Part shown: positions 892-13,625 of the stretch, in pieces | Position numbering within the stretch: position 1 is the first letter of the stretch | Layout: the number at the start of each line of letters is the position of its first letter | IMG/VR virus record: IMGVR_UViG_3300021403_000041 | Location: 1 to 30,055 of that record | Reading direction: 5' to 3' (one strand) | Source: a virus | Length of the DNA stretch: 30,055 nucleotides | Position numbers and translations under genes: made by a program | Notes under the pieces: generated by a model | Seen by the model: the letters and a program-made list of their open reading frames with translations, nothing else | Databases searched by the model: none | What the model was told of the DNA's origin: nothing

Positions 892-1097
892 CAAATACGC
901 CGATGCGCTGACACTTCCTGAAGCGCCCGATATGGACTAAAGGCCTTGATATCTCCAGCACGAATGCGACCGCGCACGCGAAATTCGCAGACCTTCCCGC
1001 GCGTGCGATTCTCAAAGTGGTCAATGAACACAGTCCCGTCCTTCAACTCAACGCGAACCTTCTTGCCACGCTGAATCTCGGTGTGCGGCGTCTTCAT
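891..1097 (-). CDS. Small SH3-like beta protein (hypothetical)
   Basis: 68 residues, basic, with alternating hydrophobic strands around KKVRVELKDGTVFIDHFENR and VCEFRVRGRIRAGDIKAFSP. This pattern resembles small SH3-like or Sm-like barrels that bind nucleic acid; this is inference from strand pattern only. The ATG at 1097 lies two bases after the stop of the gene at 1100-1354, with a weak GGGGA upstream. Its stop overlaps the next start as TGATG. Confidence 0.65.
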   Translation of the reverse strand: MKTPHTEIQRGKKVRVELKDGTVFIDHFENRTRGKVCEFRVRGRIRAGDIKAFSPYRALQEVSAHRRI

Positions 1098-1099
1098 TG

Positions 1100-1354
1100 T
1101 TAGTGAATCCCCGTGTCATCATCATTAACAAGCAATGCGCGGATATTTGCGATCAATGTCGCACTGCGCGCAGTTTCATTAGCGATGCTCTTCGTGAACT
1201 GTGAATGCCGTATTTTCTCTGCGTCCCAATGCTGCTGAATCAGTGACGTGCCTTTGTCGAATCCAGCCAGAAAGCCTCGCACGTAGCACATCCGACAGAG
1301 ACAGCCATAGCCTAGAACAACAACTGCGCCTATTACATAAATCTCAGCGCTCAT
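1100..1354 (-). CDS. Small membrane-anchored protein
   Basis: 84 residues. Residues 5-21 (IYVIGAVVVLGYGCLCR) form one predicted membrane segment at the N terminus. It is followed by a Gly/Phe turn (RGFLAGFDKG) and a helical, soluble C-terminal part. Topology is probably N-out or signal-anchor; no catalytic motif is seen. The ATG at 1354 overlaps the TGA of the upstream zinc-finger gene (ATGA), which fixes the start and implies coupled translation. A small inner-membrane protein in an early phage operon could act in superinfection exclusion or host takeover, but nothing in the sequence shows this. Confidence 0.65.
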   Translation of the reverse strand: MSAEIYVIGAVVVLGYGCLCRMCYVRGFLAGFDKGTSLIQQHWDAEKIRHSQFTKSIANETARSATLIANIRALLVNDDDTGIH

Positions 1355-1602
1355 CGCGGCGTCTCTCCCCCTCCGACCGAGGCAAGTCTTTCTGCGATAC
1401 GCGCATCAAGATACGCTGCGATAAGATCACCGACCATCTGGTCTGGATATTCGACGAGCCACTGTTTCAACTCACCCACACTCACCACCAGCACATCATC
1501 GCCGCCGCAGTAGGGTTCATCGCATGAGCCGCAGCGCTCACCGTTATTACAGTTGCGATGATCACAGGCTGGGCATGACCATTCCACATATTGCGGGCTC
1601 AT
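1351..1602 (-). CDS. RanBP2-type zinc-finger protein
   Basis: 83 residues. Residues 8-26 match the RanBP2-type zinc-finger pattern exactly: W-x-C-x2-C-x3-N-x6-C-x2-C (WSCPAC, then DHRN, then CGSC). A further Cys follows in EPYCGGDD. This finger type usually binds RNA or ubiquitin in eukaryotes and occurs in some bacterial and phage proteins. The second half (about residues 36-75) looks helical and acidic (GELKQWLVEYPDQMVGDLIAAYLD) and could be a partner-binding helix pair. The start ATG at 1602 overlaps the stop of the gene at 1599-1859 (ATGA). Function unknown; the zinc site is the firm part. Confidence 0.75.
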   Translation of the reverse strand: MSPQYVEWSCPACDHRNCNNGERCGSCDEPYCGGDDVLVVSVGELKQWLVEYPDQMVGDLIAAYLDARIAERLASVGGGETPR

Positions 1603-1859
1603 GCGGTCTTTTCGTTGGCCGCAAGTGTGGCAATGGTGAGTTGCTTGAAGCGTTCAGGGTTAAGAGTGGTTCCCAACTCAGTCGCGATTCGCATCTTCAA
1701 TGTCAGTCCGGCGATATCGTCTGGCACCACACGTTCAACGGCTGCGATGAATTCATCAAGCAACATCTTGCTCACGACTTGCACCATGTCAGCGCAGAGT
1801 TGTGTCTCACGCTCACTGATTTCGCCATACGCGTTGAGGCCAGTGATCGAGAGCGCCAT
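1599..1859 (-). CDS. Hypothetical early protein with ANEKTA C terminus
   Basis: 86 residues, mostly helical by composition, no family recognised. The C terminus is PERFKQLTIATLAANEKTA, which matches the ends of the three genes upstream in the same operon. Its codons differ synonymously from the others (GAA, ACC). The ATG at 1857-1859 follows directly after the TAG of the gene at 1860-2228 (TAGATG). Its own TGA overlaps the next ATG. The shared ending may be a protein signal or a conserved translation-coupling module. Confidence 0.65.
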   Translation of the reverse strand: MALSITGLNAYGEISERETQLCADMVQVVSKMLLDEFIAAVERVVPDDIAGLTLKMRIATELGTTLNPERFKQLTIATLAANEKTA

Positions 1860-2228
1860 CTAAGCCGTTTTCTCGTTGGCGACGAGCGCCGACAGGCGGT
1901 TCACGAGTTTGCCGATGTTCTCGAATTCATCGAAATGCCATGTACCCACGCGGCCATCGAGGTCTGGATACTCATACTCGTACCGTTCTTGGACGAGGCC
2001 GCATAATTCACAGCGTCGGTGACGGATGGGCGGATTCGTCAGCGCCACGCCATCATCGAGTTTCCATAAGTGATCGTGCGCTGGATACCCCATCACCATG
2101 AAGTTGCCCGCACTAATCCACGCCTGCACATCCTGCGTCACATCCATAACTCTTAAACGCAATGCGTCCAGATCTCGTTTGTATCCTTCAGCCATTACGA
2201 GCGACGCGTCGTTGACTTGATCGCTCAT
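1860..2228 (-). CDS. Hypothetical early protein, CxxC, ANEKTA C terminus
   Basis: 122 residues from the ATG at 2228 (MSDQVNDAS). I chose this start because that ATG overlaps the stop of the upstream frame (ATGA), as at most junctions here. The open frame continues to the next upstream gene, but only because that gene is frameshifted. A CELCG motif near residue 76 and a His in GTWHFDEFEN could form a metal site. The C terminus is NRLSALVANEKTA followed by TAG. No family recognised. Confidence 0.6.
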   Translation of the reverse strand: MSDQVNDASLVMAEGYKRDLDALRLRVMDVTQDVQAWISAGNFMVMGYPAHDHLWKLDDGVALTNPPIRHRRCELCGLVQERYEYEYPDLDGRVGTWHFDEFENIGKLVNRLSALVANEKTA

Positions 2229-2477
2229 GCGGTTGTCTCGTTGTCGGGGAGCGCCCGCAGCCAACTCGTGAATTTCTGAAAGCGTGATGGCGCGGGCTCG
2301 TCCCACGTCATTTTCATGCGAGAGTGCATCGAAACATGATTGCATGGCGGCTCTATCTTCATCGCTCTTTCGCTGAAACTCTGCATCAAACGCGGCGCAC
2401 TCCGCACGATATTTATGCCCGCGTCCATGCGCAAGGTCAAGGATGTCTGGATAGGGAGCGTCAATCTTCCACTTCAT
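2225..2477 (-). CDS. Small early protein, apparently frameshifted
   Basis: The reading frame starts at the ATG at 2477, which overlaps the stop of the RHH gene (ATGA), and gives MKWKIDAPYPD. After about 55 codons (near AMQSCFDALSHE) the coding signal appears to move to another frame that ends PSRFQKFTSWLRALPDNETTA at 2225. The shared C-terminal peptide and better third-position GC support that second frame. The span is 253 bases, one too many for a single frame; removing one base in the AAAA run (plus-strand 2311-2314) gives one 83-residue ORF. Either there is a one-base insertion, a sequencing error, or a programmed slip. Read without the shift, this ORF would fuse to the next gene. Function unknown. 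Confidence 0.5.
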
Positions 2478-2638
2478 GCCGTCTTCTCGTTGGCGGCTAA
2501 GGCACGCAGCAGCAGCCCGCGAATGACCCACGACTGCGATCGATCCTGCGCGCGGGCGAGTCGTTCGATCTGTTCGCGCAATTCCGGCTCCGCTTTGAAG
2601 CCCATTACCTTCGCGCGCTTCTGCTTATGTTTCGTCAC
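2474..2638 (-). CDS. Ribbon-helix-helix transcriptional regulator
   Basis: 54 residues from GTG at 2638. The layout fits a CopG/Arc-like ribbon-helix-helix protein: a short strand (RAKVMGFKAE), then helix one (PELREQIERLARAQ), the DRSQS turn, and helix two (WVIRGLLLRALAA). Such proteins dimerise and insert the strand pair in the DNA major groove. It is the first gene of the leftward operon and faces the divergent control region, so it likely autoregulates and may control the rightward replication operon. The GTG lies only seven bases after a near-consensus -10, suggesting a leaderless mRNA. An internal ATG would cut off part of the DNA-binding strand. The C terminus LAANEKTA is shared with downstream genes. 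Confidence 0.75.
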   Translation of the reverse strand: MTKHKQKRAKVMGFKAEPELREQIERLARAQDRSQSWVIRGLLLRALAANEKTA

Positions 2639-2645
2639 GGCAGAG

Positions 2646-2675
2646 AATATAAACCAACAACAAACGACGTGTCAA
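2646..2675 (-). promoter_or_regulatory. Leftward sigma70-type promoter
   Basis: On the minus strand TTGACA (2675-2670) is followed after 18 bases by TATATT (2651-2646), or after 17 by TTATAT. This is close to the sigma70 consensus. The predicted transcription start is about position 2639, just before or at the GTG of the RHH gene, leaving little or no leader. Confidence 0.7.
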
Positions 2676-2686
2676 GGGTTGTTGAC
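2671..2686. promoter_or_regulatory. Candidate operator (inverted repeat)
   Basis: GTCAA-N6-TTGAC is a perfect 5-bp inverted repeat centred between the two divergent promoters, and its arms are parts of both -35 boxes. A dimeric RHH protein binding here would block both. The symmetry may simply arise from two opposed -35 boxes. Confidence 0.35.
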
Positions 2687-2710
2687 TTGCGAATTAAAGG
2701 GTTCTATAGT
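2682..2710 (+). promoter_or_regulatory. Rightward sigma70-type promoter
   Basis: TTGACT (2682-2687), a 17-base spacer and TATAGT (2705-2710) resemble sigma70 consensus. The predicted transcription start is about 2717, which lies after the best GTG start of the replication gene (2709). So either this box is not used, or translation begins at a later TTG (2745). Confidence 0.5.
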
Positions 2711-3614
2711 GTCCGCTCACACCTATGACGAATACGAGCGCGCCTTGGGCCTGACTGCATTGTGGTGGTGGATTGACCGTTGGAGAAAGTCCACGGCCTA
2801 CACCGATATGACCCTCGAAGAGCAAGGGGCGTACCGTAACCTGTTAGACGAAGCGCATCTGCGCGGGGGCTACCTGCCGACCGATGAACGCATCCTCGCG
2901 AAAGCCTGTGGAGACGCGCTCGCCTGGTCTCGCGTTCGCTCATCCGTTCTTTCGAAATTCACTACCACAGATCGCGGTTACTACAATGAAACATTAGCCT
3001 TAGTGCTTCAAGAATCGGAACGCCGGGCCGACAAGCAGCGCCGCTATCGTGAGCGTCTTGGTAACGATAGACGTAACGGTGACGGTAACGCGGCTGGTAA
3101 CAAGCCGGGTAACAACCTTGGTTCTCCGTCTCCGTCTCCGTCTCCGTCTCCGTCTCCGTCTCCGTCTCCGTCTCCTGATGGATCTCTAGATATAAATAAC
3201 AAGCTAGTTAGAAGCAGCAGTGTCTCTACCACCAGCGCGAACGGCAGCAGCAACGGCCATGCAAAACCTCAGCAGGTGAACGGGCGCAGTAAACATCCCA
3301 TTTTTCAAGGTCAGCGGTTCGTGGTGTTTGACTGGATGCTGGAAGACATGCGCCGTATCCTCGGCCCTGAGAATCTTGATCGCTTTGATGTTCACGAATG
3401 GTTCTTCACACTCGATGCCCGTCTCGCGAAAACCACGGTGACATTGAAACGCAACGATGTGTGGCCGTTCCTGCAATCCGAACTCGTGAAGGAATCGATT
3501 AAGCGTGGAATGCCGATCATCGATCCGAATCAGATGGAAGCCAAGCCTCATGTGAGCAAGCAAACCTCGCGTCTTCTCGCGGCTATCTCGACCATGAAGG
3601 ACACTCTTGACTAA
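2709..3614 (+). CDS. YdaU/DUF1376-like replication protein
   Basis: 301 residues from GTG at 2709, which has an AAAGGG seven bases upstream; TTG at 2745 is the alternative. Residues 15-75 match the DUF1376 (YdaU) pattern: ALWWWIDRW, MTLEEQGAYRNLLDEAHLRG, YLPTDERILAKACG. This winged-helix-like domain is found in phage replisome organiser proteins that bind the origin. A Lys/Arg-rich stretch (ADKQRRYRERL) and a Ser-Pro repeat linker follow, then a C-terminal region (HPIFQGQRFVVFDWMLEDM) resembling those that contact replication partners. As first gene of the rightward early operon, it likely starts phage replication. An origin may lie within this gene, but no iterons were seen. Confidence 0.75.
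   Translation: MSAHTYDEYERALGLTALWWWIDRWRKSTAYTDMTLEEQGAYRNLLDEAHLRGGYLPTDERILAKACGDALAWSRVRSSVLSKFTTTDRGYYNETLALVLQESERRADKQRRYRERLGNDRRNGDGNAAGNKPGNNLGSPSPSPSPSPSPSPSPSPDGSLDINNKLVRSSSVSTTSANGSSNGHAKPQQVNGRSKHPIFQGQRFVVFDWMLEDMRRILGPENLDRFDVHEWFFTLDARLAKTTVTLKRNDVWPFLQSELVKESIKRGMPIIDPNQMEAKPHVSKQTSRLLAAISTMKDTLD
3123..3176 (+). repeat. Perfect TCTCCG hexamer repeat (Ser-Pro linker)
   Basis: Eight identical tctccg units followed by tctcct encode nine Ser-Pro pairs between the two halves of the YdaU-like protein. The unit length keeps frame, so slippage would only lengthen or shorten the linker. The identity of units at the DNA level suggests recent expansion. Confidence 0.95.
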
Positions 3615-4068
3615 CGCACTAATCAAGCTAGCGACGGAAAAAGAATTCGCGATCATCTTCGCGAGGATGGCTACACAGCTCCGGTGGCTGGACGCGGACG
3701 CTGCCGCGATCCAGAGCTATTACGCCGCGCTCAAAGACTTGCCGGACGAAATAATTCACGCGAGCGCCGCGCGTATCGCGAACGAACCAGGCCGAAAGTT
3801 TTTTCCGACAACCGGCGAATGGCGCGAAGTCGCCTTGCTCATCGAGCAGGAAAAGCGTCGCGCCGAATTCAGCGGCCCGCATTCATGGACTGAAGAATGC
3901 GAAACATGTCACGATACGGGATGGGAAGGATTCGACTGCACGGGCGGAAAACACGGCGGGTGTGATCGTGACCGCGAACATCTCCCGCATCACTTCGTCC
4001 GCGTTTGCCCCTGCCGTCCAACGAACCGAACCTATCAGCGCCATCAGTGGAAAGCGAAATCAGCCTAG
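3607..4068 (+). CDS. Putative helicase-loader-like protein with Cys-rich tail
   Basis: 153 residues from TTG at 3607, with AAGGA five bases upstream; the start overlaps the end of the YdaU gene. The N-terminal 90 residues are helical and follow the plan of G39P-type helicase loaders: WLDADAAAIQSYYAALKDLP, then IIHASAARIANEP, then FFPTTGEWREVALLIEQ. The C-terminal part carries Cys and His pairs (CETCHDTGWEGFDC, GCDRDREHLPHH, CPCR) suggesting one or two zinc sites. Coupling to the replication gene supports a role in loading the host or phage helicase. The family call is tentative. Confidence 0.55.
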   Translation: MTNALIKLATEKEFAIIFARMATQLRWLDADAAAIQSYYAALKDLPDEIIHASAARIANEPGRKFFPTTGEWREVALLIEQEKRRAEFSGPHSWTEECETCHDTGWEGFDCTGGKHGGCDRDREHLPHHFVRVCPCRPTNRTYQRHQWKAKSA

Positions 4069-4079
4069 GACGGCCCCCA

Positions 4080-4199
4080 ATGACTGAGCCCACACGCCTC
4101 GATCTCCTGCGTTGGCAGATCGCCTTCCCCCATATTTGTGCGGGCAAGCGCTGCGCGATTTGTCGCTGGGTATGGGAGCATGATAAAACATCACGCTAA
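4080..4199 (+). CDS. 39-residue Cys-rich small protein
   Basis: ATG at 4080 to TAA at 4197. The end contains CAGKRCAICRWVWEHD, giving a C-x4-C-x2-C plus His cluster that could hold zinc. Its stop overlaps the start of the next gene as TAATG. A longer version from 4005 in the same frame would overlap the upstream gene and is less likely. Function unknown. Confidence 0.55.
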   Translation: MTEPTRLDLLRWQIAFPHICAGKRCAICRWVWEHDKTSR

Positions 4200-4552
4200 T
4201 GGCGCAGACACGTCGCGACTTTCTCAAAACACTTGGCCTTGCGGCGGCAGCGGTCTCCTTCGGCTCCGCGCTTCCTTCCGATGCAGGCGGCCCGATGCCG
4301 ATGCCTCAGGCGCTGGACGAAATCCTGCACGTCGGAGATACCTTCACTATCGCTGGCCGTTACGCCATTGATCCCATCACGCGAAAGGCCACCGATGTAC
4401 TTCAGAAATTCATCGTCACAAGCGTCACGACAGATCGCGCCGAACTCGGATTTCATCCAACGCTGAAAACTGAAACTGGGCCATCATGGCCGAAGGTTGG
4501 ACCGCTGGAGCAATTTAATCCTCCTCCACTTCTCACAAGGAAGCTCCGATGA
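4199..4552 (+). CDS. Tat-exported small protein (hypothetical)
   Basis: 117 residues. The N terminus is a textbook twin-arginine signal: TRRDFLK at residues 4-10, an Ala-rich hydrophobic core (LGLAAAAVSFGSA), then a possible cleavage region around SDAGG. This would send a folded protein across the inner membrane. The mature part (about 85 residues) looks beta-rich (HVGDTFTIAGRYAID, FIVTSVTTDRAELGFHP) and Pro-rich at the end; no domain recognised. The ATG overlaps the previous TAA, and the TGA overlaps the next ATG. A Tat signal is unexpected in a phage early region. Confidence 0.7.
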   Translation: MAQTRRDFLKTLGLAAAAVSFGSALPSDAGGPMPMPQALDEILHVGDTFTIAGRYAIDPITRKATDVLQKFIVTSVTTDRAELGFHPTLKTETGPSWPKVGPLEQFNPPPLLTRKLR

Positions 4553-4896
4553 AACTCACGACTCGCGATCAACTCGTGAAGAGGAAGGGCATCGTGATCG
4601 CGGACGGCCAGATGAAATTAGAAGTTGGCGACTACCACGGCTGCGCCGACGCGATGATGGACCTTCGCGAAATAGATGCGCAGATCACGCTATTGGATGC
4701 GCTGCGCGAATCCTTCGAGAAAAACAACGGATTATTCTCAGCTGAGTGCAAGGCAGATCTCTTTCACGCCGTGCGCTACGACATAAACTTCGACGACTGG
4801 CGTTGTCCATGCGGATATCAGTTCCGAGTGATCAGCGTTCCGAAGATGCCAGAAAAAGAAAATGCCGAAACCACAAATAATCAGACGCTATGTTGA
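4549..4896 (+). CDS. Hypothetical early protein
   Basis: 115 residues, ATGA-coupled to the Tat-signal gene. The middle is helical (REIDAQITLLDALRESFEK) and the end holds CPCGYQF followed by a tail of mixed residues. The last 35 bases overlap the start of the next gene in another frame. No family recognised. Confidence 0.65.
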   Translation: MKLTTRDQLVKRKGIVIADGQMKLEVGDYHGCADAMMDLREIDAQITLLDALRESFEKNNGLFSAECKADLFHAVRYDINFDDWRCPCGYQFRVISVPKMPEKENAETTNNQTLC

Positions 4897-5065
4897 CGCT
4901 GCTACGGTCGCAGAACTCTTAGCTTCGCCACGCGCGATGTTTACGCCGACAGGTGCGCGGACGGTGCGTATTGACGCGGATATCGAGACGGATTGGTATA
5001 TCGTTCCAGAAGATGATCCACGCTTAAACACAATCGAAGAAATTCAGAAATCAGATGCCGATTAA
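4862..5065 (+). CDS. Hypothetical small protein
   Basis: 67 residues, MPKPQIIRRYVDAATVAELL at the start and an acidic C-terminal half (DADIETDWYIVPEDDPRL). It overlaps the previous gene by 35 bases and the next by 11, as is typical in this packed operon. AAAAGAAA precedes the ATG, a weak ribosome site. Nothing shows function. Confidence 0.55.
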   Translation: MPKPQIIRRYVDAATVAELLASPRAMFTPTGARTVRIDADIETDWYIVPEDDPRLNTIEEIQKSDAD

Positions 5066-5249
5066 GCGTCTAGAGCCGAACCCAATACCCGAGTTTTATC
5101 ACGCTGATTCGTTTCCGGCTTTCGAGAAAATGCTGTGCGAGTCATGTGGGCTTCCTTGTGGACAACGCCGGATTGGTTCTGGGCTTGAAACCGTGAAGTG
5201 CCCGAAGTGTTATCGCTGCGAGACTTCAGACGAGCGATCCAATGCCTGA
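5055..5249 (+). CDS. Small zinc-ribbon protein
   Basis: 64 residues. CESCGLPCG and CPKCYRC are spaced as a four-Cys zinc ribbon (about residues 28-58). Its start MPIKRLE is almost the same as that of the next gene, and the two share 13 identical bases there (AAGCGTCTAGAGC). Overlaps with both neighbours imply coupled translation. Could bind DNA or protein; not assigned. Confidence 0.6.
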   Translation: MPIKRLEPNPIPEFYHADSFPAFEKMLCESCGLPCGQRRIGSGLETVKCPKCYRCETSDERSNA

Positions 5250-5481
5250 GAAGCGTCTAGAGCGCACACGGGCGAGTCTGCCGCCGTCCTATCAGTTTGG
5301 CGATGCGCGAGAAAAGAATTGGGACTCGCACTACGTTCAACCAGTCGGACGCATGATGCGTGATCCAGCCGCATACGCGGAATATCGCAAGCGCTGCGAC
5401 ATTGCCCGCGAACTTGAGCCGAAAACGCTGTCGCAGATTATTCCTATCTGGCTGAATCCAACGCGCGGCGAGTCTCGCTGA
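5242..5481 (+). CDS. Hypothetical protein just before terminase
   Basis: 79 residues, starting MPEKRLERT. It is basic and Tyr-rich (AYAEYRKRCDIARELEP) with no recognised domain. The last base of its TGA is the first base of the terminase ATG (TGATG). Small terminase genes often sit here, but the length and lack of a helix-turn-helix do not support that call. Confidence 0.6.
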   Translation: MPEKRLERTRASLPPSYQFGDAREKNWDSHYVQPVGRMMRDPAAYAEYRKRCDIARELEPKTLSQIIPIWLNPTRGESR

Positions 5482-6911
5482 TGAGCGAACTCGTTTTTAA
5501 GGGCCAGCATCTTCAGTTTCTCCACGATTATTCCGCCGCGATCGACATCGAGGGAAGCCTTTCGTGCGGCAAGACGACCGTATGCCTCTGCAAAGAATTA
5601 CGGATGCTGAAAAAGTATCCAGGGATGCACGTGTTGATCTGCCGCTGGACCGATGACGCGACGAATACACTGTTGCGTCCAGCGCTGGAACAAATGGCGC
5701 GCATCGAAAACGTGATGCTCACATGGAACGACAAGCTGAAGTACTACGACACAGACAACGGCTGCCGCATTTATGCGTTCGGATTGAAAACGCAATCGCA
5801 AGATCCTGAACAGCGCTACGGCAAGATTCGCGGCTTGCCCGTGTCGCGCATTTACGTGGATCAGGCGGAACAGCTTCCCGGCGATATCGCGAGCGAACTG
5901 CTTCTCCGTCTGCGGCCGGACCTTGAGCAGCGCTTAGCTGGGACAGACTTCCCGCGCCAACTCACGTTCTCCCCGAATCCATGCAACACCGATCACTGGC
6001 TCGCAAAACAGTTTCCCACCGACAACCACGTCAAGGGTCGGAAGTACTACGCGCTGAGCATCTTTGAAAATTCGCACAACTTGCCGGACGGCTTCATCGA
6101 CAATGCGCTTATCACGTACCCTGTCGAACATCCGAAGCACCAGACCGTGATCCTGGGTCAGCGCGGACCAAACATCATCGGTGATCCTATCTACGAAAAT
6201 CTCTTCGACCGCGACTCGCACGTGAAACCGATCGCCGCGAACAGAGATACCGGACTACTGGAAGCGTTCGAATTCGGCAAGCACAATCCCGTGTGGGTGC
6301 TGGCGCAGCGTTCGTATCATGGCGGAATGCGCTTGCTGGGCGGCATCATGGGGAAGCGCCTTATGCTGGAAGATTTTCTTCCCATCATCAAAACGTATCG
6401 CGATGACTGGGCCGAAGGATTGCCGATCCGCACCTGCACCGGCCCGCGTCCTGCGCTGATTAAACTCCTGCGCGATGCGGGCTTCAAAGCCGTCTCGCGT
6501 CCAGATGGAGACGCGCACGATGAACAGCTTGTGCAGATCGAAAACATCTCCACCGCGCTCAGGCGACGTGTCGCGGCTCGCGAAGAAGCGCTGCTTATCA
6601 ACGATGCGAAAGCGCGCTGGCTCATCGCTGAAGACGCGACCGAACGGCAGCAGCCGTTTATGGAGTTCGCATTCAGCGGCGGTTATGTGTGGGACACCCA
6701 CATGGTGCGCACGGGCAACAAAGAACTGCGCCAGCCACTCGCCGACGACGAATACGCGAACGTCATGCGCTGCGTCGAAAACCTCATGCTGAACTTCTTC
6801 GCAGGCCAAAAGACCGAAGAAGAGCGCGAAGCGCAGCGCCGCCGACTCGCCACTGGCCCTCCCCTCTCCGTCGCAGTCCCCACTTCCGATAAGAGCTATC
6901 TAGCCTCCTGA
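5481..6911 (+). CDS. terL: Terminase large subunit
   Basis: 476 residues. The N-terminal ATPase shows a Walker A at residues 25-33 (GSLSCGKTT), a Walker B at 123-130 (RIYVDQAE, with D127 and E130) and a coupling motif near 160 (LTFSPNP). The C-terminal half should hold the RNase-H-like nuclease; FEFGKHNP (about residues 260-267) is the likely first acidic strand. This motor cuts concatemeric DNA and pumps it through the portal. Length is usual for the family. It is the last gene before a 208-bp structured gap, and no small subunit was recognised nearby. Confidence 0.88.
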   Translation: MSELVFKGQHLQFLHDYSAAIDIEGSLSCGKTTVCLCKELRMLKKYPGMHVLICRWTDDATNTLLRPALEQMARIENVMLTWNDKLKYYDTDNGCRIYAFGLKTQSQDPEQRYGKIRGLPVSRIYVDQAEQLPGDIASELLLRLRPDLEQRLAGTDFPRQLTFSPNPCNTDHWLAKQFPTDNHVKGRKYYALSIFENSHNLPDGFIDNALITYPVEHPKHQTVILGQRGPNIIGDPIYENLFDRDSHVKPIAANRDTGLLEAFEFGKHNPVWVLAQRSYHGGMRLLGGIMGKRLMLEDFLPIIKTYRDDWAEGLPIRTCTGPRPALIKLLRDAGFKAVSRPDGDAHDEQLVQIENISTALRRRVAAREEALLINDAKARWLIAEDATERQQPFMEFAFSGGYVWDTHMVRTGNKELRQPLADDEYANVMRCVENLMLNFFAGQKTEEEREAQRRRLATGPPLSVAVPTSDKSYLAS

Positions 6912-6928
6912 AATACCCGTAACTGAGG

Positions 6929-7063
6929 CAAATAGGAGAAGGGTCGATTTTGCCCTAGGACGACGATCGGCAGCCGGAACGACCCCATGTGGCCTTTGGC
7001 GATTCGCGTCGTTCCTAGGGCCTGCCAGGGGCCTTCCTGAGCCTCGGAAAAAGGGTCTATTTG
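6929..7063. other. Nested inverted repeat in the terminase/virion gap
   Basis: In the 208-base gap 6912-7119 an inner pair, CCCTAGGACGACG (6953-6965) and CGTCGTTCCTAGGG (7007-7020), can form a 13-bp stem with one bulged base; GCCC/GGGC extends it. An outer pair, CAAATAG (6929-6935) and CTATTTG (7057-7063), encloses it. GGGTCG (6941) can alternatively pair with CGACCC (6980). This could be a structured RNA, a terminator-antiterminator, a packaging or recombination site, or a tiny mobile element. No good coding frame is seen. Confidence 0.55.
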
Positions 7064-7093
7064 TCGTGTAAATGGGCTTGACTTTCCTGTTTG

Positions 7094-7102
7094 TGCTACA
7101 CT
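7094..7102 (+). promoter_or_regulatory. Possible extended -10 late promoter
   Basis: TGCTACACT is an extended -10 (TGn plus TACACT). A TTGACT at 7078 is too close (13 bases) to be a standard -35. Transcription would start near 7108, about 12 bases before the first virion-block gene, which lacks a clear Shine-Dalgarno. Confidence 0.35.
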
Positions 7103-7119
7103 CGCGTCCACGTTTTCTC

Positions 7120-7449
7120 ATGTCCAATGACGCCTTCAGTCAACTCGCCCTCGCCAGCGATCCGCGCTTCCTCCTGCGTCTCAAGGGCGCATGTGTCGTC
7201 GTGGCCGAACAGATTTTTGCCGAAGATCCTGCCACGCCGAATCATGCCGCCCGTCTCGCCCTCGCGACGAGCGTGTTGAGGACGCCGGAATCTTCAGCCG
7301 CGTTCGCACAGTTTTTCGTCATGCGGCCCAACGTGATTGACTTTGCGACCACCTATGACTTCCATGCGTTACAGGTGACGACGGCCGCTGGCGATGCTGA
7401 TCTGCAATCGCAGATTGCGACGGACTGGAATACACTCACTGCCCTCTGA
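7120..7449 (+). CDS. Hypothetical protein, first of virion block
   Basis: 109 residues from ATG at 7120 (MSNDAFSQLALA); an upstream in-frame start at 7072 would lie in the structured gap and is rejected. The protein is all-helical by composition. Helical segments include FLLRLKGACVVVAEQIFAED and HAARLALATSVLRTP. Placed two genes before the portal, it may be a head-assembly factor. Family not recognised. No strong ribosome site is seen. Confidence 0.6.
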   Translation: MSNDAFSQLALASDPRFLLRLKGACVVVAEQIFAEDPATPNHAARLALATSVLRTPESSAAFAQFFVMRPNVIDFATTYDFHALQVTTAAGDADLQSQIATDWNTLTAL

Positions 7450-7450
7450 A

Positions 7451-7717
7451 ATGGCGGACGATATGACCGTGGCTGATCATCTCGCCGCTTCGCGTGACGC
7501 CCATATTCGCTATCGTAGTCTCCACGATGCTTCGAAAAATGCCGATGCGGTAGGGATGGGGGCGGCCATCCAAGATGCTTTGGATCATCGGCGTGCGGCC
7601 GATTTTGCCGATCCGACGCATAGCGATCCCGCCTGGCAGGTGGATGTCTTTGACGGCAAGCCCGTGTCACATGCGGATCTGATGACGTTCTACGAGACCT
7701 ATCGTGCTACCCACTGA
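7451..7717 (+). CDS. Hypothetical protein upstream of portal
   Basis: 88 residues from ATG at 7451 (MADDMTVADHLAASRDAH), two bases after the previous TGA. Helical, His- and Asp-rich, no domain recognised. Its 3' end overlaps the portal start by 14 bases, so portal translation is probably coupled to it. Confidence 0.6.
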   Translation: MADDMTVADHLAASRDAHIRYRSLHDASKNADAVGMGAAIQDALDHRRAADFADPTHSDPAWQVDVFDGKPVSHADLMTFYETYRATH

Positions 7718-10046
7718 CACCGACGTGGCACCAGACAGCGCGCCACGCCAGACGCGCACCACGCGTCAAACGACCGAATTCATGGCGCTCGCACGCGAGC
7801 GCAAAAAACAAGCCGACGAAGCCGACCAGAAGCAATGCGCGCGTGAGCGCGAGGACATCGCGTTCTACAACGGCGATCAGTGGCCTGACGAAGCGAAACG
7901 CGCCAGAGCTGCGCAACCCGCGACGGGAAACGTTCCTGCTACGTCCGCGCGGCCGATGCCCGTGATCAATAAACTGCGCGAACCGATTCGCAACGTGCTG
8001 AATGATGAGCGCGATAGCGACATTGGTGTTCAGCTCGTACCCGCTGATGACTTCGGCGATCTTGGTCTCACCATCGACGACACCGAAATCAAACTCCGCG
8101 AAGGGCTGATCCGGCGCATTCAGCGCGATTCGTCGGCGGCAGACGCGCGGACGTGGGCGTTTAGTCGCGCCGCCATTGCGGGACGCGGCTATTACGCCGT
8201 GATGACGCGCTTCGTCGAAGGCAAAAGCATGGACAAAGAAATTTTTGTCATGCGCATCTACAACCAAGACGCGGTCTGGATGGACCCGGCCCACGAACAG
8301 CCGGATGGCTCAGATGCGGAATGGGAAGGATTCGGCACGTGGATGTCTTGGGAACGCTATAAAGCGACATGGCCCCATAGCGCCAAACACCCCAACCGCA
8401 TTAGCGCGGGCACCGATGGTGATTTCGCGGCGTGGACCACTGAGCATCCCGATTGGATTCGCACCGAGGGCGACAACAAATCCGTCTATGTCACGGATTA
8501 CTACTACGTCGAATACGAATCGCGTGAACTCTGTAAATTAATCGATGGCTCTACGCAGTGGTGGGACGAGCTCCCCGAGGAGATTACCGACGACATGATT
8601 GTGGATCGTCGGACCTGTGTAGAGCGCAAGGTGAAATGGGCGAAAATTGATGGGATCAATGACGCCCCGTTGGAAGAGACGGATTGGGAGTCGCCGTTTC
8701 TGCCGATCGTGAAAGTGCTCGGCGAAGAACTCCATCCGCACGACAATGAGCGTCGAGCGGAAGGCATGGTCCGCCCTGCGCGATCCTCGCAAGAGGGATT
8801 CAACTACATGATCGCGAAGCAGATTGAGATGGTGGGACAAACCCCCATCTCGCCGCTGCTCGTGGACCCTGAATCCATCGAAGGCTGGGAAGAATGGTAC
8901 AAAGTCGCGCCGTCGCGCCCGTTCTACATGCTGCCGGCCCGAACCTGGGACGATCAGGGGCGACAGTTTCGTGAACCGCATCGGCCCAACGCGGACCCGA
9001 ATATCGTACCCGTCGCGCAATCAACGCAGATGTTTGAGCAGGCGATTCAGAGCACGACCGCTGTCCCGGCCGCCGCGCTCGGCGACATTGATCCAGTCAC
9101 GCGGAGCGGAAAAGCCCTCAGTGTCCTGACAAAAAATTCCAAGCTCTCCACGAGCAACTTCATGGGGAATCTCTCTCGCTCGGTGCGCTATGAGGGATTG
9201 ATCGAGAACAGCTTGCTCTATCCGATCTACGGGAAATCGCCCAATCGGCTGGTGAGAATTTTGATTGGCAACGACAGTCATTTGGCGATGATTGCCGATC
9301 AGAGTCAGCCACCTTCCCCACAAGACGCCGCGTTAGCCCAGCGGGCCAAGGTGGTCGGGAAACTCACCCCAGACGCCCGCTTCAATGTCATCGTCAAAGT
9401 GACGAAGGCCTATGAGGAACGCCGCGACGAAGAGCGGGCGATGCTGGCGGAAGTGTTTACGGCGAGCCCTGAAACATTTACGTGGTTTGCTGACATTTTC
9501 CTGAAAGATGGTGACGGTCCAGGTTCAGAAGAACTCTCTGAGCGCGCGAAGGTGATGCTCCCGCCCCCAATTCAAGCGATGCTCGCCGCAAAGGCGCAAG
9601 GCCAAGCGCCACCGACGCCTCAGGAAATGCAACTCCACGCCCAGAACGCCAAGCTTCAGCAGCAAGTCCAAGAACTTGGGATGAAGGTGCAGACTAAACA
9701 AGTCGAGCAGGAGGGGAAAATGCAAATCACGCAGGTCCAAGAGGCCCACGAAGACCAGAGGGCGGCCATGGATCGCGAAGTAAAAATCGCCGTGGCTGAA
9801 ATTGCGGCGCAAGCCAAGCAAGCCTTGCAGGATATGGCCCTCTTCTATGAAGAGCGCGCCCGTATCGGCGCGCAAATTCATGAACATGCCATCGGCAGTG
9901 CGGACGGAGCCAGAGCCATGGCATTGGCGCACAAAACCGCGCAACTAGAAGCAGGCCAGTCCGTGATTGACCATCAGCATGCGCTCACGGAGAATGTCCA
10001 GCAAGCCGCCTTGCAGCCAGCGCCGACCGAGGGCACGCCAGCATGA
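7704..10046 (+). CDS. Portal protein, P22-type
   Basis: 780 residues from GTG at 7704; an ATG about 26 codons later is possible. The first 550 residues fit the P22-type portal: EDIAFYNGDQWPDE, then VINKLREPIRNVLNDERDSD, RRIQRDSSAADARTWAFSRA and WMDPAHEQPDGSDAEW. The C-terminal 200 residues are a long Gln/Glu/Ala-rich coiled coil (about 640-760), matching the helical barrel of the P22 portal that lines the capsid channel. Twelve copies would form the ring where terminase docks and through which DNA enters and leaves. Its TGA overlaps the next ATG. Confidence 0.88.
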   Translation: MLPTDTDVAPDSAPRQTRTTRQTTEFMALARERKKQADEADQKQCAREREDIAFYNGDQWPDEAKRARAAQPATGNVPATSARPMPVINKLREPIRNVLNDERDSDIGVQLVPADDFGDLGLTIDDTEIKLREGLIRRIQRDSSAADARTWAFSRAAIAGRGYYAVMTRFVEGKSMDKEIFVMRIYNQDAVWMDPAHEQPDGSDAEWEGFGTWMSWERYKATWPHSAKHPNRISAGTDGDFAAWTTEHPDWIRTEGDNKSVYVTDYYYVEYESRELCKLIDGSTQWWDELPEEITDDMIVDRRTCVERKVKWAKIDGINDAPLEETDWESPFLPIVKVLGEELHPHDNERRAEGMVRPARSSQEGFNYMIAKQIEMVGQTPISPLLVDPESIEGWEEWYKVAPSRPFYMLPARTWDDQGRQFREPHRPNADPNIVPVAQSTQMFEQAIQSTTAVPAAALGDIDPVTRSGKALSVLTKNSKLSTSNFMGNLSRSVRYEGLIENSLLYPIYGKSPNRLVRILIGNDSHLAMIADQSQPPSPQDAALAQRAKVVGKLTPDARFNVIVKVTKAYEERRDEERAMLAEVFTASPETFTWFADIFLKDGDGPGSEELSERAKVMLPPPIQAMLAAKAQGQAPPTPQEMQLHAQNAKLQQQVQELGMKVQTKQVEQEGKMQITQVQEAHEDQRAAMDREVKIAVAEIAAQAKQALQDMALFYEERARIGAQIHEHAIGSADGARAMALAHKTAQLEAGQSVIDHQHALTENVQQAALQPAPTEGTPA

Positions 10047-10330
10047 GCCGTGAGCAATTACACTTCGCCACTCATCCAGACGATCATGTCTGCTACGAAT
10101 ACTTCACTGCGTGGTTTCAATTTCTCGACGCACAAGGAGCCCTGACCATGAGCACCGTTGCTGATCTCAAAACATCTGTCGATAACTTGGCCGCTGCGGT
10201 CGCGAAAGTCTCGGCCGAAGTCGCCGCACTGAAGGCTGTGCCTCACGTGGTGCAGAACGTCGAACAGGCTGATCTGGATGCGACCGTGACGGCTGTTGAT
10301 GCCGCGACGGCATCACTTACAGCGCTGTAG
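10043..10330 (+). CDS. Small coiled-coil protein with two possible starts
   Basis: 95 residues from ATG at 10043, overlapping the portal stop. A second in-frame ATG at 10148 has a strong AAGGAG eight bases upstream and would give a 60-residue protein beginning MSTVADLKTSVDNL. The second part is a heptad coiled coil (LAAAVAKVSAEVAALKA). The first part (HVCYEYFTAWFQFLDAQG) may act as a short separate module. Small coiled-coil proteins next to portal or scaffold genes are common in such phages; role unknown. Confidence 0.65.
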   Translation: MSREQLHFATHPDDHVCYEYFTAWFQFLDAQGALTMSTVADLKTSVDNLAAAVAKVSAEVAALKAVPHVVQNVEQADLDATVTAVDAATASLTAL

Positions 10331-10332
10331 CC

Positions 10333-10635
10333 ATGCCAGCGAAATCACGCGCTCAGGAACGCCTAATGCAGGCGGCTGAGCATGGCGCGTCATTTCCGAT
10401 GGCGCGCAAACTGCGTCGGACGATGACGCATGCGCAGTTGCACGATTTTGCGGTAGGGTCAGAGAAGAACAAGCCGTCACACGTGCTGCATCCGAAAATG
10501 CAGCAACGATCGCAAATGGTGAAAGCCGCGCATACCCATCTCGCGCTGCATCTGCCTGGATTCAGGGCGATGCCAGCCGCGAGACGTATGAAAGCTGTAC
10601 AGGCGCACGTCACTCGTCAACTCAAAGGACGCTAA
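10333..10635 (+). CDS. DUF3008-like basic protein
   Basis: 100 residues. The start MPAKSRAQERLM and the later MTHAQLHDFAVGSEKNKP follow the pattern of DUF3008-type proteins (MPAKSKAQ, helix, then MT/S..LxxFA). Highly basic and His-rich. Its TAA overlaps the scaffold ATG (TAATG). Function unknown; it may bind DNA or the scaffold. Confidence 0.65.
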   Translation: MPAKSRAQERLMQAAEHGASFPMARKLRRTMTHAQLHDFAVGSEKNKPSHVLHPKMQQRSQMVKAAHTHLALHLPGFRAMPAARRMKAVQAHVTRQLKGR

Positions 10636-11708
10636 TGGCCGAACAGGAAATCATCGCTCCCGCCGCTGATGCTGATGTCTCGCTCGCTGATCATGAAGCG
10701 AGTTACGCGCCAGCCAATAGTTTTGATGAACAAGTGGCAAATGCTGCCCCTGTGCCAGCGGTCGAAGCTATTGATGAGGATGAGGAACCTGAGTCAGTCG
10801 TTCCCCCGAACGGACCTGCTCCCACACGCCATCGTGCGGCGAGTCAACAAGCGAAGCCCGACGACGTGGCAGCAATTGGAGAACTCACAAAGCGGGTACG
10901 GGCCGCTGAGGCGGAACTCGGGATTACACGTAAGCCCGGCGAGAGTCAGCGTGTCTTCAATCTCAGAAAGCAGGTCGAGATCGCAGAACGGCTCAAGGCC
11001 GTCTCGAAGCCTGCTTCAGTGTTGGCCCCGCCGCTCGCAGCGGCTCCAGTCGTCGCGAATGCGCCTTCTGCCTTTGCTGATCCAGAGCCTACCCAAGCGC
11101 AGTTCATGGATAAGGCCGATCCATACGGAGCCTTTGTCAGTGCCCATACCCGATGGGAGTGGAAAAAAGAACAATTTGATGCCGAACAGGCGAACGCCAA
11201 GACCCAGCAAGCCCAGGAATTAAAAGCGCGTCAAGAGAAATTTGCGGGGTGGGTGAAAGGCGTCGAAGATACCCATACGGCACGAATGACGACCTTCATT
11301 TCGAATAATCAGGCCGTAAAAGCTGAAATGGAAGCCGCTGCTGATCTGAGTATCAGCCCCATTATGTATGGGGCCGTGACTTTGTCTGAGCGCGGTCCAG
11401 AAATCATGTTAGAGTATGCCCGTCATCCTGAGTTAGTGGAAGACTTGTTCCTTCAGACTGAAGGCAAGCCGTTAATCCAGCGGGATGGCACCGTGAATCC
11501 TCTCGTTGCGATTGTGCAACGCCGCCTCATATCGCGCTTGTCGGCCGCCTCGACTGGATCGGCCCCTGCGCGCGTAGCAGTTCCGGTGACTCGTCCTCCC
11601 AATCCAGTGAGGACTGCGCCACAAACGCCGAGCGCCACGCCGCCCGGCGATGGTGCGTCCTTAGCGGATCACGAACGCTTCTACGGACCCAAGCACCGTC
11701 GCTCATGA
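10635..11708 (+). CDS. Scaffolding protein (predicted)
   Basis: 357 residues, acidic at the N terminus and basic at the very end (GPKHRRS), with long helical stretches (WEWKKEQFDAEQANAKTQQA). Position between portal and coat, composition, and a short basic C terminus are the usual marks of a P22-like scaffold, which directs coat assembly and leaves the shell. The motif HEASYAP (residues 20-26) near the start and HERFYGP (346-352) near the end are near copies, both preceded by SLAD. The call rests on context rather than on a conserved domain. Confidence 0.7.
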   Translation: MAEQEIIAPAADADVSLADHEASYAPANSFDEQVANAAPVPAVEAIDEDEEPESVVPPNGPAPTRHRAASQQAKPDDVAAIGELTKRVRAAEAELGITRKPGESQRVFNLRKQVEIAERLKAVSKPASVLAPPLAAAPVVANAPSAFADPEPTQAQFMDKADPYGAFVSAHTRWEWKKEQFDAEQANAKTQQAQELKARQEKFAGWVKGVEDTHTARMTTFISNNQAVKAEMEAAADLSISPIMYGAVTLSERGPEIMLEYARHPELVEDLFLQTEGKPLIQRDGTVNPLVAIVQRRLISRLSAASTGSAPARVAVPVTRPPNPVRTAPQTPSATPPGDGASLADHERFYGPKHRRS

Positions 11709-11743
11709 GGTAACGTCGCGCTGCGGCCTTGAGGGTCGCAGTT

Positions 11744-12979
11744 GTGATTAACAATCTGTTCATTACGCCGCAGTGGGTCGCGACCGATACCGCTGCGGGC
11801 TTTGCAGGGAATACGCGGCTGATCAACTTGTTTTCCCGCGAATGGGATAACACGTGGCGCGATTTGCCGGACGGCGCGAAGATCGGTTACACCGCGCAGG
11901 TCAGGATTGACCAGCGCTGGCAGGTCTTTGAGGGGCAGGCGCTGCAACAGCAGGCCATCCTCAATCAGACCGTTCCGATTACCATCAATCATCAATTCCA
12001 AGTCGCGCATGGTTGGTCTTCGGCGGATCAATCGCTCGTCGTGGAAGAAGTGCAGCGCTACACCCGGACCGCGGGCAAAGCGATGGCGGGCAAGTGGGAC
12101 GTGGTGGCGGGACAGGAAGTCTATCGCCTGTGCTATTACCAGATCGGTTCCCCTGGTGTCCCGCTGAATTCGGATCAGGCGTGGCTGGACGGCGTGGCGA
12201 AGCTCGTGAACGTCGCCGTGCCGGATGACGATTTGTGGGCTGCGCTCGACGTCAAGACGCACTCCAAACTGCTCGGCGCGAACATCGGCGCGTTCAACCC
12301 GCAGGCGCAGATCAGCAAGTACTTTAAGACCGGCCAGTTCAACGAAGGCGCGCTTGGTGTCGAAGGTTGGGTCAAAGATCCCAACATGCCGACGCATACG
12401 ACAGGCACGTTCACGTCTTCGACGCCGCTGGTCAGTGGCGCACTACAGACAGGTTCCACGCTCGTCACGAGCGGCTGGGGCACGTACGCCTTCAAGGCCG
12501 GTGACACGTTCTACATCGCTGGCGTCAATGCGGTGAATCCTGTGACCTACGTGGACACGGGCGATCCGCAGGCGTTCTCATTGCAGGTGGATCTGTCTGG
12601 CGCGGGTTCGGCGACATTCACCGTCTCTCCACCGATCATCACGTCTGGGCCGTTGCAGACGGTGACGGCGTCTCCAGCCAACAATGCGACGATCACATTC
12701 GTCGGTTCGACGGGTAACGTCAACGCGACGATGGCGGCGCAGACATCGAAACAATCGCTGCTCTTCAATCCGGACGCGTTTGCGTTCGTGATGGCCGACC
12801 TTCCCGGGACATTGGCTGGGGCGGTGACTGGGCGATTCGTAGGCGATCCGAAATCGAAGATTAAGGGCCGCTACGTCGATCAGTACAACATTCAGACCGA
12901 CCAACTGCCACGGCGCTACGACACTATCGGCGGCGTGGCGTGCATCCTGCCCTATTTCGCCCTCCGGGCGTGGAGCTAA
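11744..12979 (+). CDS. Major capsid protein, P22 coat type
   Basis: 411 residues from GTG at 11744, preceded by GAGGG eight bases upstream; TTG at 11729 in frame is less likely. The plan fits the P22 gp5 coat family: an N-terminal strand (NNLFITPQWVATDTAAGFAG), a scaffold-facing region, then a Thr/Ser/Gly-rich beta insertion (about 225-335), and the fold end PDAFAFVMADLPGTL. The insertion is in the position where P22 coat carries its I-domain. It forms the icosahedral shell. It follows scaffold directly, as in P22-like phages. Confidence 0.82.
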   Translation: MINNLFITPQWVATDTAAGFAGNTRLINLFSREWDNTWRDLPDGAKIGYTAQVRIDQRWQVFEGQALQQQAILNQTVPITINHQFQVAHGWSSADQSLVVEEVQRYTRTAGKAMAGKWDVVAGQEVYRLCYYQIGSPGVPLNSDQAWLDGVAKLVNVAVPDDDLWAALDVKTHSKLLGANIGAFNPQAQISKYFKTGQFNEGALGVEGWVKDPNMPTHTTGTFTSSTPLVSGALQTGSTLVTSGWGTYAFKAGDTFYIAGVNAVNPVTYVDTGDPQAFSLQVDLSGAGSATFTVSPPIITSGPLQTVTASPANNATITFVGSTGNVNATMAAQTSKQSLLFNPDAFAFVMADLPGTLAGAVTGRFVGDPKSKIKGRYVDQYNIQTDQLPRRYDTIGGVACILPYFALRAWS

Positions 12980-12983
12980 ATCG

Positions 12984-13625
12984 ATGGCACTTGTGCGAAC
13001 GACTCTCACCGCTCCCATCACCTCCAATCAGCTCACCTTCGGTGTGGCGAGCACGCTCAATGCCGCATTTCCTGGCGTTGGCGCGGCTCCGCTCACGTAC
13101 CAGGCAATGGTGATTGATGATGAGGTGATGTTCCTCGTCAGTTGCCCGGCCACGAATGTCGTTACGGTGCGGGGCCGTGGCTCTGACGGGACGGACGCTG
13201 TTCCTCATGACATTGGCTCGTCTGTTGTCACCACGTCGAATGCGCAGGACTGGCCGTCCGCGCAGGCGGGTATGAGCACGCTGCGTCCGCCGTCTACGCA
13301 GGACATCGTGACCTATGGTCAGTCCGGCGTTATCGCGGTGCCAGTGGAAGGGCAGACCACTGTTTATCTCGCGGCCACTTCGGCCGGAGCCTATACGTTG
13401 GGGGCTCCGTCGCTCGCACTGAATGGCATCGAAATGACGATTACCTCGCAGACAGCATTCGCGCACGTCATTGTGGCGACGAGTCTGTTCTTTCCCAGTA
13501 ACGCGGCGGGTCCACTGAGCACAGCGACGTATCCAGGCAACATCGGCGCGACGATGCAGATCGTGGCGCAGAACGGCGTCTGGAACGTGATCAATGCCAG
13601 CATCTCGCCGGTGGTCTTCACGTAA
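12984..13625 (+). CDS. Virion structural protein (hypothetical)
   Basis: 213 residues, beta-rich, low in charge and rich in Ala, Thr, Val and Ser, as for capsid surface or neck proteins. GGAG nine bases upstream supports the ATG. Features include VTVRGRGSDGTDAVPHD near residue 60 and a Gly-rich C-terminal half. Directly after the coat gene, it could be a decoration or head-completion protein. No family recognised. Confidence 0.6.
   Translation: MALVRTTLTAPITSNQLTFGVASTLNAAFPGVGAAPLTYQAMVIDDEVMFLVSCPATNVVTVRGRGSDGTDAVPHDIGSSVVTTSNAQDWPSAQAGMSTLRPPSTQDIVTYGQSGVIAVPVEGQTTVYLAATSAGAYTLGAPSLALNGIEMTITSQTAFAHVIVATSLFFPSNAAGPLSTATYPGNIGATMQIVAQNGVWNVINASISPVVFT

Follow-up and report, generated by a model that had tools for sequence, protein, structure and literature searches.

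The locus studied here raises the question of why four consecutive small genes of a phage end in nearly the same short peptide, and whether it is the peptide or the underlying DNA that has been kept. The window, which is the whole virus record of 30,055 bases, carries on its plus strand genes for a portal-like protein (P22-like annotations on top, with at most 25-29% identity among the best 20 matches listed) and a terminase-like protein, whose Pfam score was just below the cut-off and whose tblastn match to a phage terminase reached E 7e-15. The first 2.6 kb of the window is a leftward run of small genes opened by a ribbon-helix-helix (RHH) gene. Note that a low-complexity repeat, which reads as Ala-Gly on the minus strand and as Pro-Ala in a different reading, occupies 3-272, at the record's left end, and that Ser-Pro repeats (SPSPSP...) lie at 3120-3175 on the plus strand, within a primosomal-protein-like gene recognized by a PHROGs match.

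All genes of interest in the leftward operon are on the minus strand. The first, an RHH (CopG-like) repressor-like gene (2474..2638, 54 aa, GTG start), ends ALAANEKTA; this tail copy, consisting of the last nine codons and TGA (2476-2474), spans 2474..2503 and overlaps the next ATG. It is followed by a frame-broken gene (2225..2477), whose tail ALPDNETTA (2225..2254) is the most diverged copy and whose TGA (2227-2225) again overlaps the next ATG. The third, a 122-aa gene (MSDQ..., 1860..2228), ends ALVANEKTA (1860..1889), with its TAG (1862-1860) adjoining the next ATG, and the fourth, an 86-aa gene (1599..1859), ends TLAANEKTA (1599..1628), with its TGA (1601-1599) overlapping the next ATG. 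Hence the four common ends described in the earlier note were all present, each running right up to its minus-strand stop codon; they comprise three exact NEKTA copies and one NETTA, at junctions of which three are ATGA overlaps and one is GCT TAG ATG. The end of the 83-aa gene after the tail run (1351..1602), GETPR, had been regarded as a weaker echo of the peptide, but we rejected it as a fifth tail copy, as it has one residue of five in common with NEKTA. The same gene gave one weak PADLOC match (E 0.018). Upstream of the RHH gene, a promoter-like site facing the leftward operon (2646..2675, minus strand; TTGACA, 18, TATATT) was recognized by consensus only; promoter-like sites occur in both directions within 2646-2710, and their number in the region (2, as compared with 1.3, sd 1.2, in shuffles) was not above chance.

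In the frame-broken gene, the frame of the ATG at 2477 (MKWKID...) differs from the frame that ends LPDNETTA at 2225. Of 14 codon-usage windows, 8 favored one frame and 6 the other. Since the ATG frame continues without a stop into the 122-residue gene, a fusion, a frameshift and an assembly error are all possible.

Two related phages bear the tail. A scan of viral contigs for AACGARAARACNGCATGA gave seven stretches, and in one of them, L021, the match falls at the C-terminus of an RHH protein (...LLLRALAQNEKTA), whose stop overlaps the next start as ATGA; the next two genes of L021 are without the tail. An alignment built from the window and L021 RHH proteins then found L041, in which the RHH gene and the next gene, encoding an unrelated 82-aa protein, both end ALAQNEKTA. 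The tail run is therefore unbroken from the RHH gene in each phage, with four genes in the window, two in L041 and one in L021. In tblastn comparisons, L041 matches the window in a small leftward gene (48% identity), in two genes of the replication region (60% and 67%) and over part of the terminase (55%). L042, the full contig of L021, matches it in the terminase (39%) and the portal (28%), and also over a portion of the gene at 11729 (36%), which from its position is a putative capsid gene. A scan of viral contigs for L-A-x-N-E-K-T-A with a T after it found six places, distributed over five stretches: three are gene ends, two of them in L041 and one in L021, and three are inside one late protein of other contigs. 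Among 18 terminase relatives, several of them short fragments, neither the tail nor this RHH protein was found. Note that the tail-bearing phages number three, one of them a 7.7 kb fragment, and that the viral-contig scans may omit records very near the window's own. Another gene of the L041 leftward operon (3521-3781, plus strand; stop 3779-3781) ends ARANFEKTDR directly before TAG ATG, which may be a decayed tail copy.

A chance origin of the tails was rejected on three grounds. The exact pattern AAYGARAMNACNGC matched four times in the 30,055-base record, in every case at one of the four gene ends, and when read backwards it had no match in the record. With two mismatches allowed the pattern was not enriched (20 matches; shuffle mean 14.88), indicating that the signal sits in the exact copies. 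We also ranked 52,408 end-anchored pairs of open reading frame (ORF) ends, taken on the same strand and within 4 kb from ORFs of at least 40 aa, in the window and 40 loci, excluding L012-L015, which are pieces of the window, and L021, which lies within L042. The six window pairs ranked 3, 4, 6, 8, 10 and 18, and the L041 pair was second; among the other top pairs, the first was paralogue-like (L023), the fifth consisted of similar cysteine-rich ends (L008) and the seventh was of low complexity (L026). Moreover, the tail motif occurred once per record in all 17 other records fetched by tail-like patterns, and twice in L041. In a scan for the A-form of the pattern followed by TGA, which gave 11 stretches, the peptide ended a longer open frame in five (L002, L004 and L005, of one family, and L006 and L008, of another), and in the AACGARAARACNGCATGA scan it also ended putative open frames of 55 and 38 codons in L023 and L024, respectively; there is one copy per record, and the ends in these seven loci were taken as coincidence. 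As a separate observation, two nearby genes of L023, a contig unrelated to the window, share IAALREPT (minus strand, stops 4369 and 4661 of the reverse complement) and end ALAEDGTPDG and ALAEEGTPDG in near-identical DNA, so that they look like recent paralogues from their sequences.

The proteins that carry the tail appear otherwise unrelated. In an all-against-all BLASTP of 19 small-protein sequences with tails removed, two of them being the frames of the broken gene, RHH proteins matched each other and the common small leftward gene was recovered (E 7e-22), while tail-bearing proteins of different kinds had no mutual similarity (best E about 0.66). The RHH proteins of the window, L041 and L021 scored 26.3, 22.4 and 24.1 bits, respectively, against Pfam RHH_1 (PF01402), all above the cut-off of 20.5 bits. 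RHH_1 was not matched by the window's 223-aa ORF, 79-aa ORF or 86-aa protein (E up to 1). The 122-aa gene, scanned as the 223-aa ORF, matched no family of Pfam or PHROGs at E values up to 1; the 86-aa protein gave a sub-threshold Pfam match only (E 0.17), no PHROGs family and no relative in viral contigs; and the L041 82-aa protein matched no Pfam family, RHH_1 included, up to E 0.1. The phage collection held no relatives of the 122-aa and L041 82-aa proteins. Likewise, no relatives were found for the portal in viral contigs, for the terminase and the RHH protein in genome contigs, or for the RHH protein in plasmids. In phages, the RHH protein gave four weak matches (E 0.1) inside an ADP-ribosyltransferase gene, and a further phage search gave none; a DNA-level search for similar phages with window 1000-13000 as the query returned nothing useful. 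The L041 82-aa protein (2917-3165) and the window's 83-aa protein (1351-1602) have a common stretch, EARIAERLPIVAG and DARIAERLASVGG, respectively (BLASTP E 0.008), and are perhaps remote kin.

The DNA-binding form of RHH proteins is a dimer. The tail lies at or past the end of the RHH_1 match in each of the three RHH proteins, and the nearest solved PDB chains match the RHH protein only as far as profile position 48 and stop before its last residues. A monomer model from the three-sequence alignment (mean pLDDT 79.3, pTM 0.51; last block pLDDT 69) has helices at 18-31 and 35-53, suggesting that the tail would prolong the second helix.

We compared the last nine codons of the seven tail copies from the three related phages. 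Of 163 pairwise nucleotide differences, 30 were at first, 24 at second and 109 at third codon positions, and the respective counts were 19, 14 and 85 when the frame-broken copy was left out; across copies, all nine third positions vary, and only four first and three second positions do. The column-shuffle p values, approximately 4e-5 with and 2e-5 without the frame-broken copy, are indicative only because the copies are related. The window copies alone gave a similar picture, with 27 of 45 differences at third positions (p 0.005), or 16 of 22 without the broken copy (p 0.0015). The two L041 tails differ at seven sites, all third positions, with seven synonymous and no nonsynonymous changes, and the tails of the 122-aa and 86-aa genes show 7.0 silent and 2.0 other differences. 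Among the RHH orthologues, nonsynonymous sites differed at 0.37-0.48 in the bodies and 0-0.17 in the tails. The third-position excess and the purely silent L041 pair bear out the reading of the synonymous codon variation as selection at the protein level, and on these sequence comparisons the tail has very probably been selected as a peptide. As in a docking motif, it is thus conserved at the protein level, by codon-position bias, and outside the folded domain, by its position relative to RHH_1. The two relatives, for which loss of the peptide with retention of the DNA had been named as the outcome that would speak against a peptide signal, both keep the peptide and not the DNA, although the gene after RHH in L021 is without the tail. 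One comparison differs from the others: the tail of the frame-broken gene and the L021 RHH tail are identical at 23 of 27 bases, with four nonsynonymous and no synonymous differences. A broken gene derived from an RHH-like end might show such a pattern if its constraint had been relaxed, but the pattern consists of four changes only.

The alternative is a coupling module at the DNA or RNA level, in which the bases before each start codon form a repeated ribosome-binding or structural element and the peptide is incidental; it draws on the fact that the copies abut start codons and on the purine-rich GARAAR. The estimated anti-Shine-Dalgarno pairing at the seven tail junctions was -1.7 to -3.0 kcal/mol (the stretch for the RHH junction being offset by one base), and at 30 other window starts, some of them unproven, the median was -5.35 kcal/mol, with 8 of 30 weaker than -3.0; a standard anti-Shine-Dalgarno sequence was used for these estimates. 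RNA folding of the seven junctions gave z-scores of -1.39 to +0.41 and differing structures with no common fold. A hairpin around AACGARAARA, judged from third-position covariation by eye and not counted pair by pair, was also rejected; it gave no consistent fold. Third-position drift, weak ribosome-binding pairing and the lack of a common fold together argue for a selected peptide, and such a module was ruled out as the main cause and appears most improbable as the explanation. Of the two readings left side by side in the earlier note, that of a shared C-terminal signal is consequently the one favored, by the third-position changes, the weak pairing and the presence of the L041 tail on an unrelated gene. 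Nevertheless, an additional translation role of the tail region is possible, since every copy abuts the next start codon. A related proposal, in which the nascent peptide acts on the terminating ribosome and favors restart at the overlapping next start, is in line with the position of all seven copies directly before a start codon and with the weak pairing, but these operons also have many tight junctions that lack it (for example, from the 83-aa to the 84-aa gene), and we know of no precedent for such a peptide; we consider it very unlikely.

The explanation that we favor is that the tail would be a functional C-terminal peptide with the consensus A-L-x-[A/Q]-N-E-K-T-A and a free carboxyl end, common to the RHH repressor-like protein and the series of small, otherwise unrelated proteins that are translated immediately downstream of it. 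One common partner, of the phage or the host, would bind the NEKTA end as a docking tail and so gather the repressor and the small early proteins at one site or in one complex. The unbroken run from RHH in each phage suggests that the tail first belonged to the RHH gene 3' end and then passed to adjoining genes. Taken as a whole, this is the most likely mechanism, with about an even chance of being right on the present sequences, and docking would keep a similar chance if protein-level selection is accepted. Against it stand the small number of phages (three only), a partner that was not found, the four nonsynonymous changes without a synonymous one noted above, and the L021 next genes and 18 terminase relatives that are without the tail. 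A broader scheme, in which any gene landing behind RHH gains a NEKTA end and a single phage or host receptor recruits or turns over all of the products, is possible but doubtful. The unbroken runs and the frame-broken and L021 tails, which differ by residue changes only, are also what would be expected if the RHH 3' end were merely copied when genes were inserted behind it, leaving a tail that matters on RHH only. However, when non-RHH copies are compared with one another or with RHH copies, silent sites have changed almost to saturation and residues are kept, which free drift would not produce; this suggests that the copies on unrelated proteins mattered as peptide, and a mere relic is distinctly unlikely.

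The main rival to docking is a putative stability tag, by which the tail would determine how long the repressor and early proteins persist, either as a C-degron recognized by a protease or adaptor of the host or as a polar tail that shields them from proteolysis at the C-terminus. In Arc, an RHH protein, polar C-terminal tails alter stability, and a repressor and early proteins would be plausible candidates for quick turnover. The ssrA tag ends LAA and is added by tmRNA through trans-translation, whereas the NEKTA tail is gene-encoded, ends KTA or TTA, and has last residues that are mostly polar or charged, with no ssrA-like LAA end. C-terminal motifs target ClpXP substrates, phage MuA among them (PMC8138137). 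Like the NEKTA tail, the ssrA tag and C-degrons are short C-terminal peptides common to unrelated proteins. We regard the stability tag as unlikely, and as second in likelihood to docking.

The docking tail can be set beside other known systems. The acidic tip of single-stranded DNA-binding protein is a conserved C-terminal docking peptide of one protein family; the NEKTA tail is likewise a short conserved end outside a folded domain, but unlike that tip it is found on at least five unrelated kinds of protein. With respect to RHH/CopG/Arc-like phage repressors, the first tail-bearing protein is one of them, and the tail is also found on non-RHH proteins. The start-associated sequences (SAS) of Cluster K mycobacteriophages, in the passages of PMC3203893 that describe them, are a 13-bp DNA word, GGGATAGGAGCCC, with a strong AGGAG before start codons. 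As in our phages, a short repeat recurs there, within one phage group, at junctions of several non-structural genes that belong to different families, and it sometimes holds the upstream stop codon (PMC3203893). However, SAS are described as conserved as DNA (PMC3203893), whereas in our phages it is the peptide that is kept, with variation at third codon positions and weak pairing, and the word GGGATAGGAGCCC had no match in the window with up to two mismatches. Among the literature matches listed, which mostly did not cover subscription papers, nothing on point was found on C-termini common to several proteins or on the tail peptide itself.

Functions are known for few of the small early phage proteins, and a shared end-peptide is a handle on the whole set. 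A binder of NEKTA, if found, would at once name a partner common to five unrelated kinds of protein, and would also show how a phage operon passes a targeting signal to newly gained genes.
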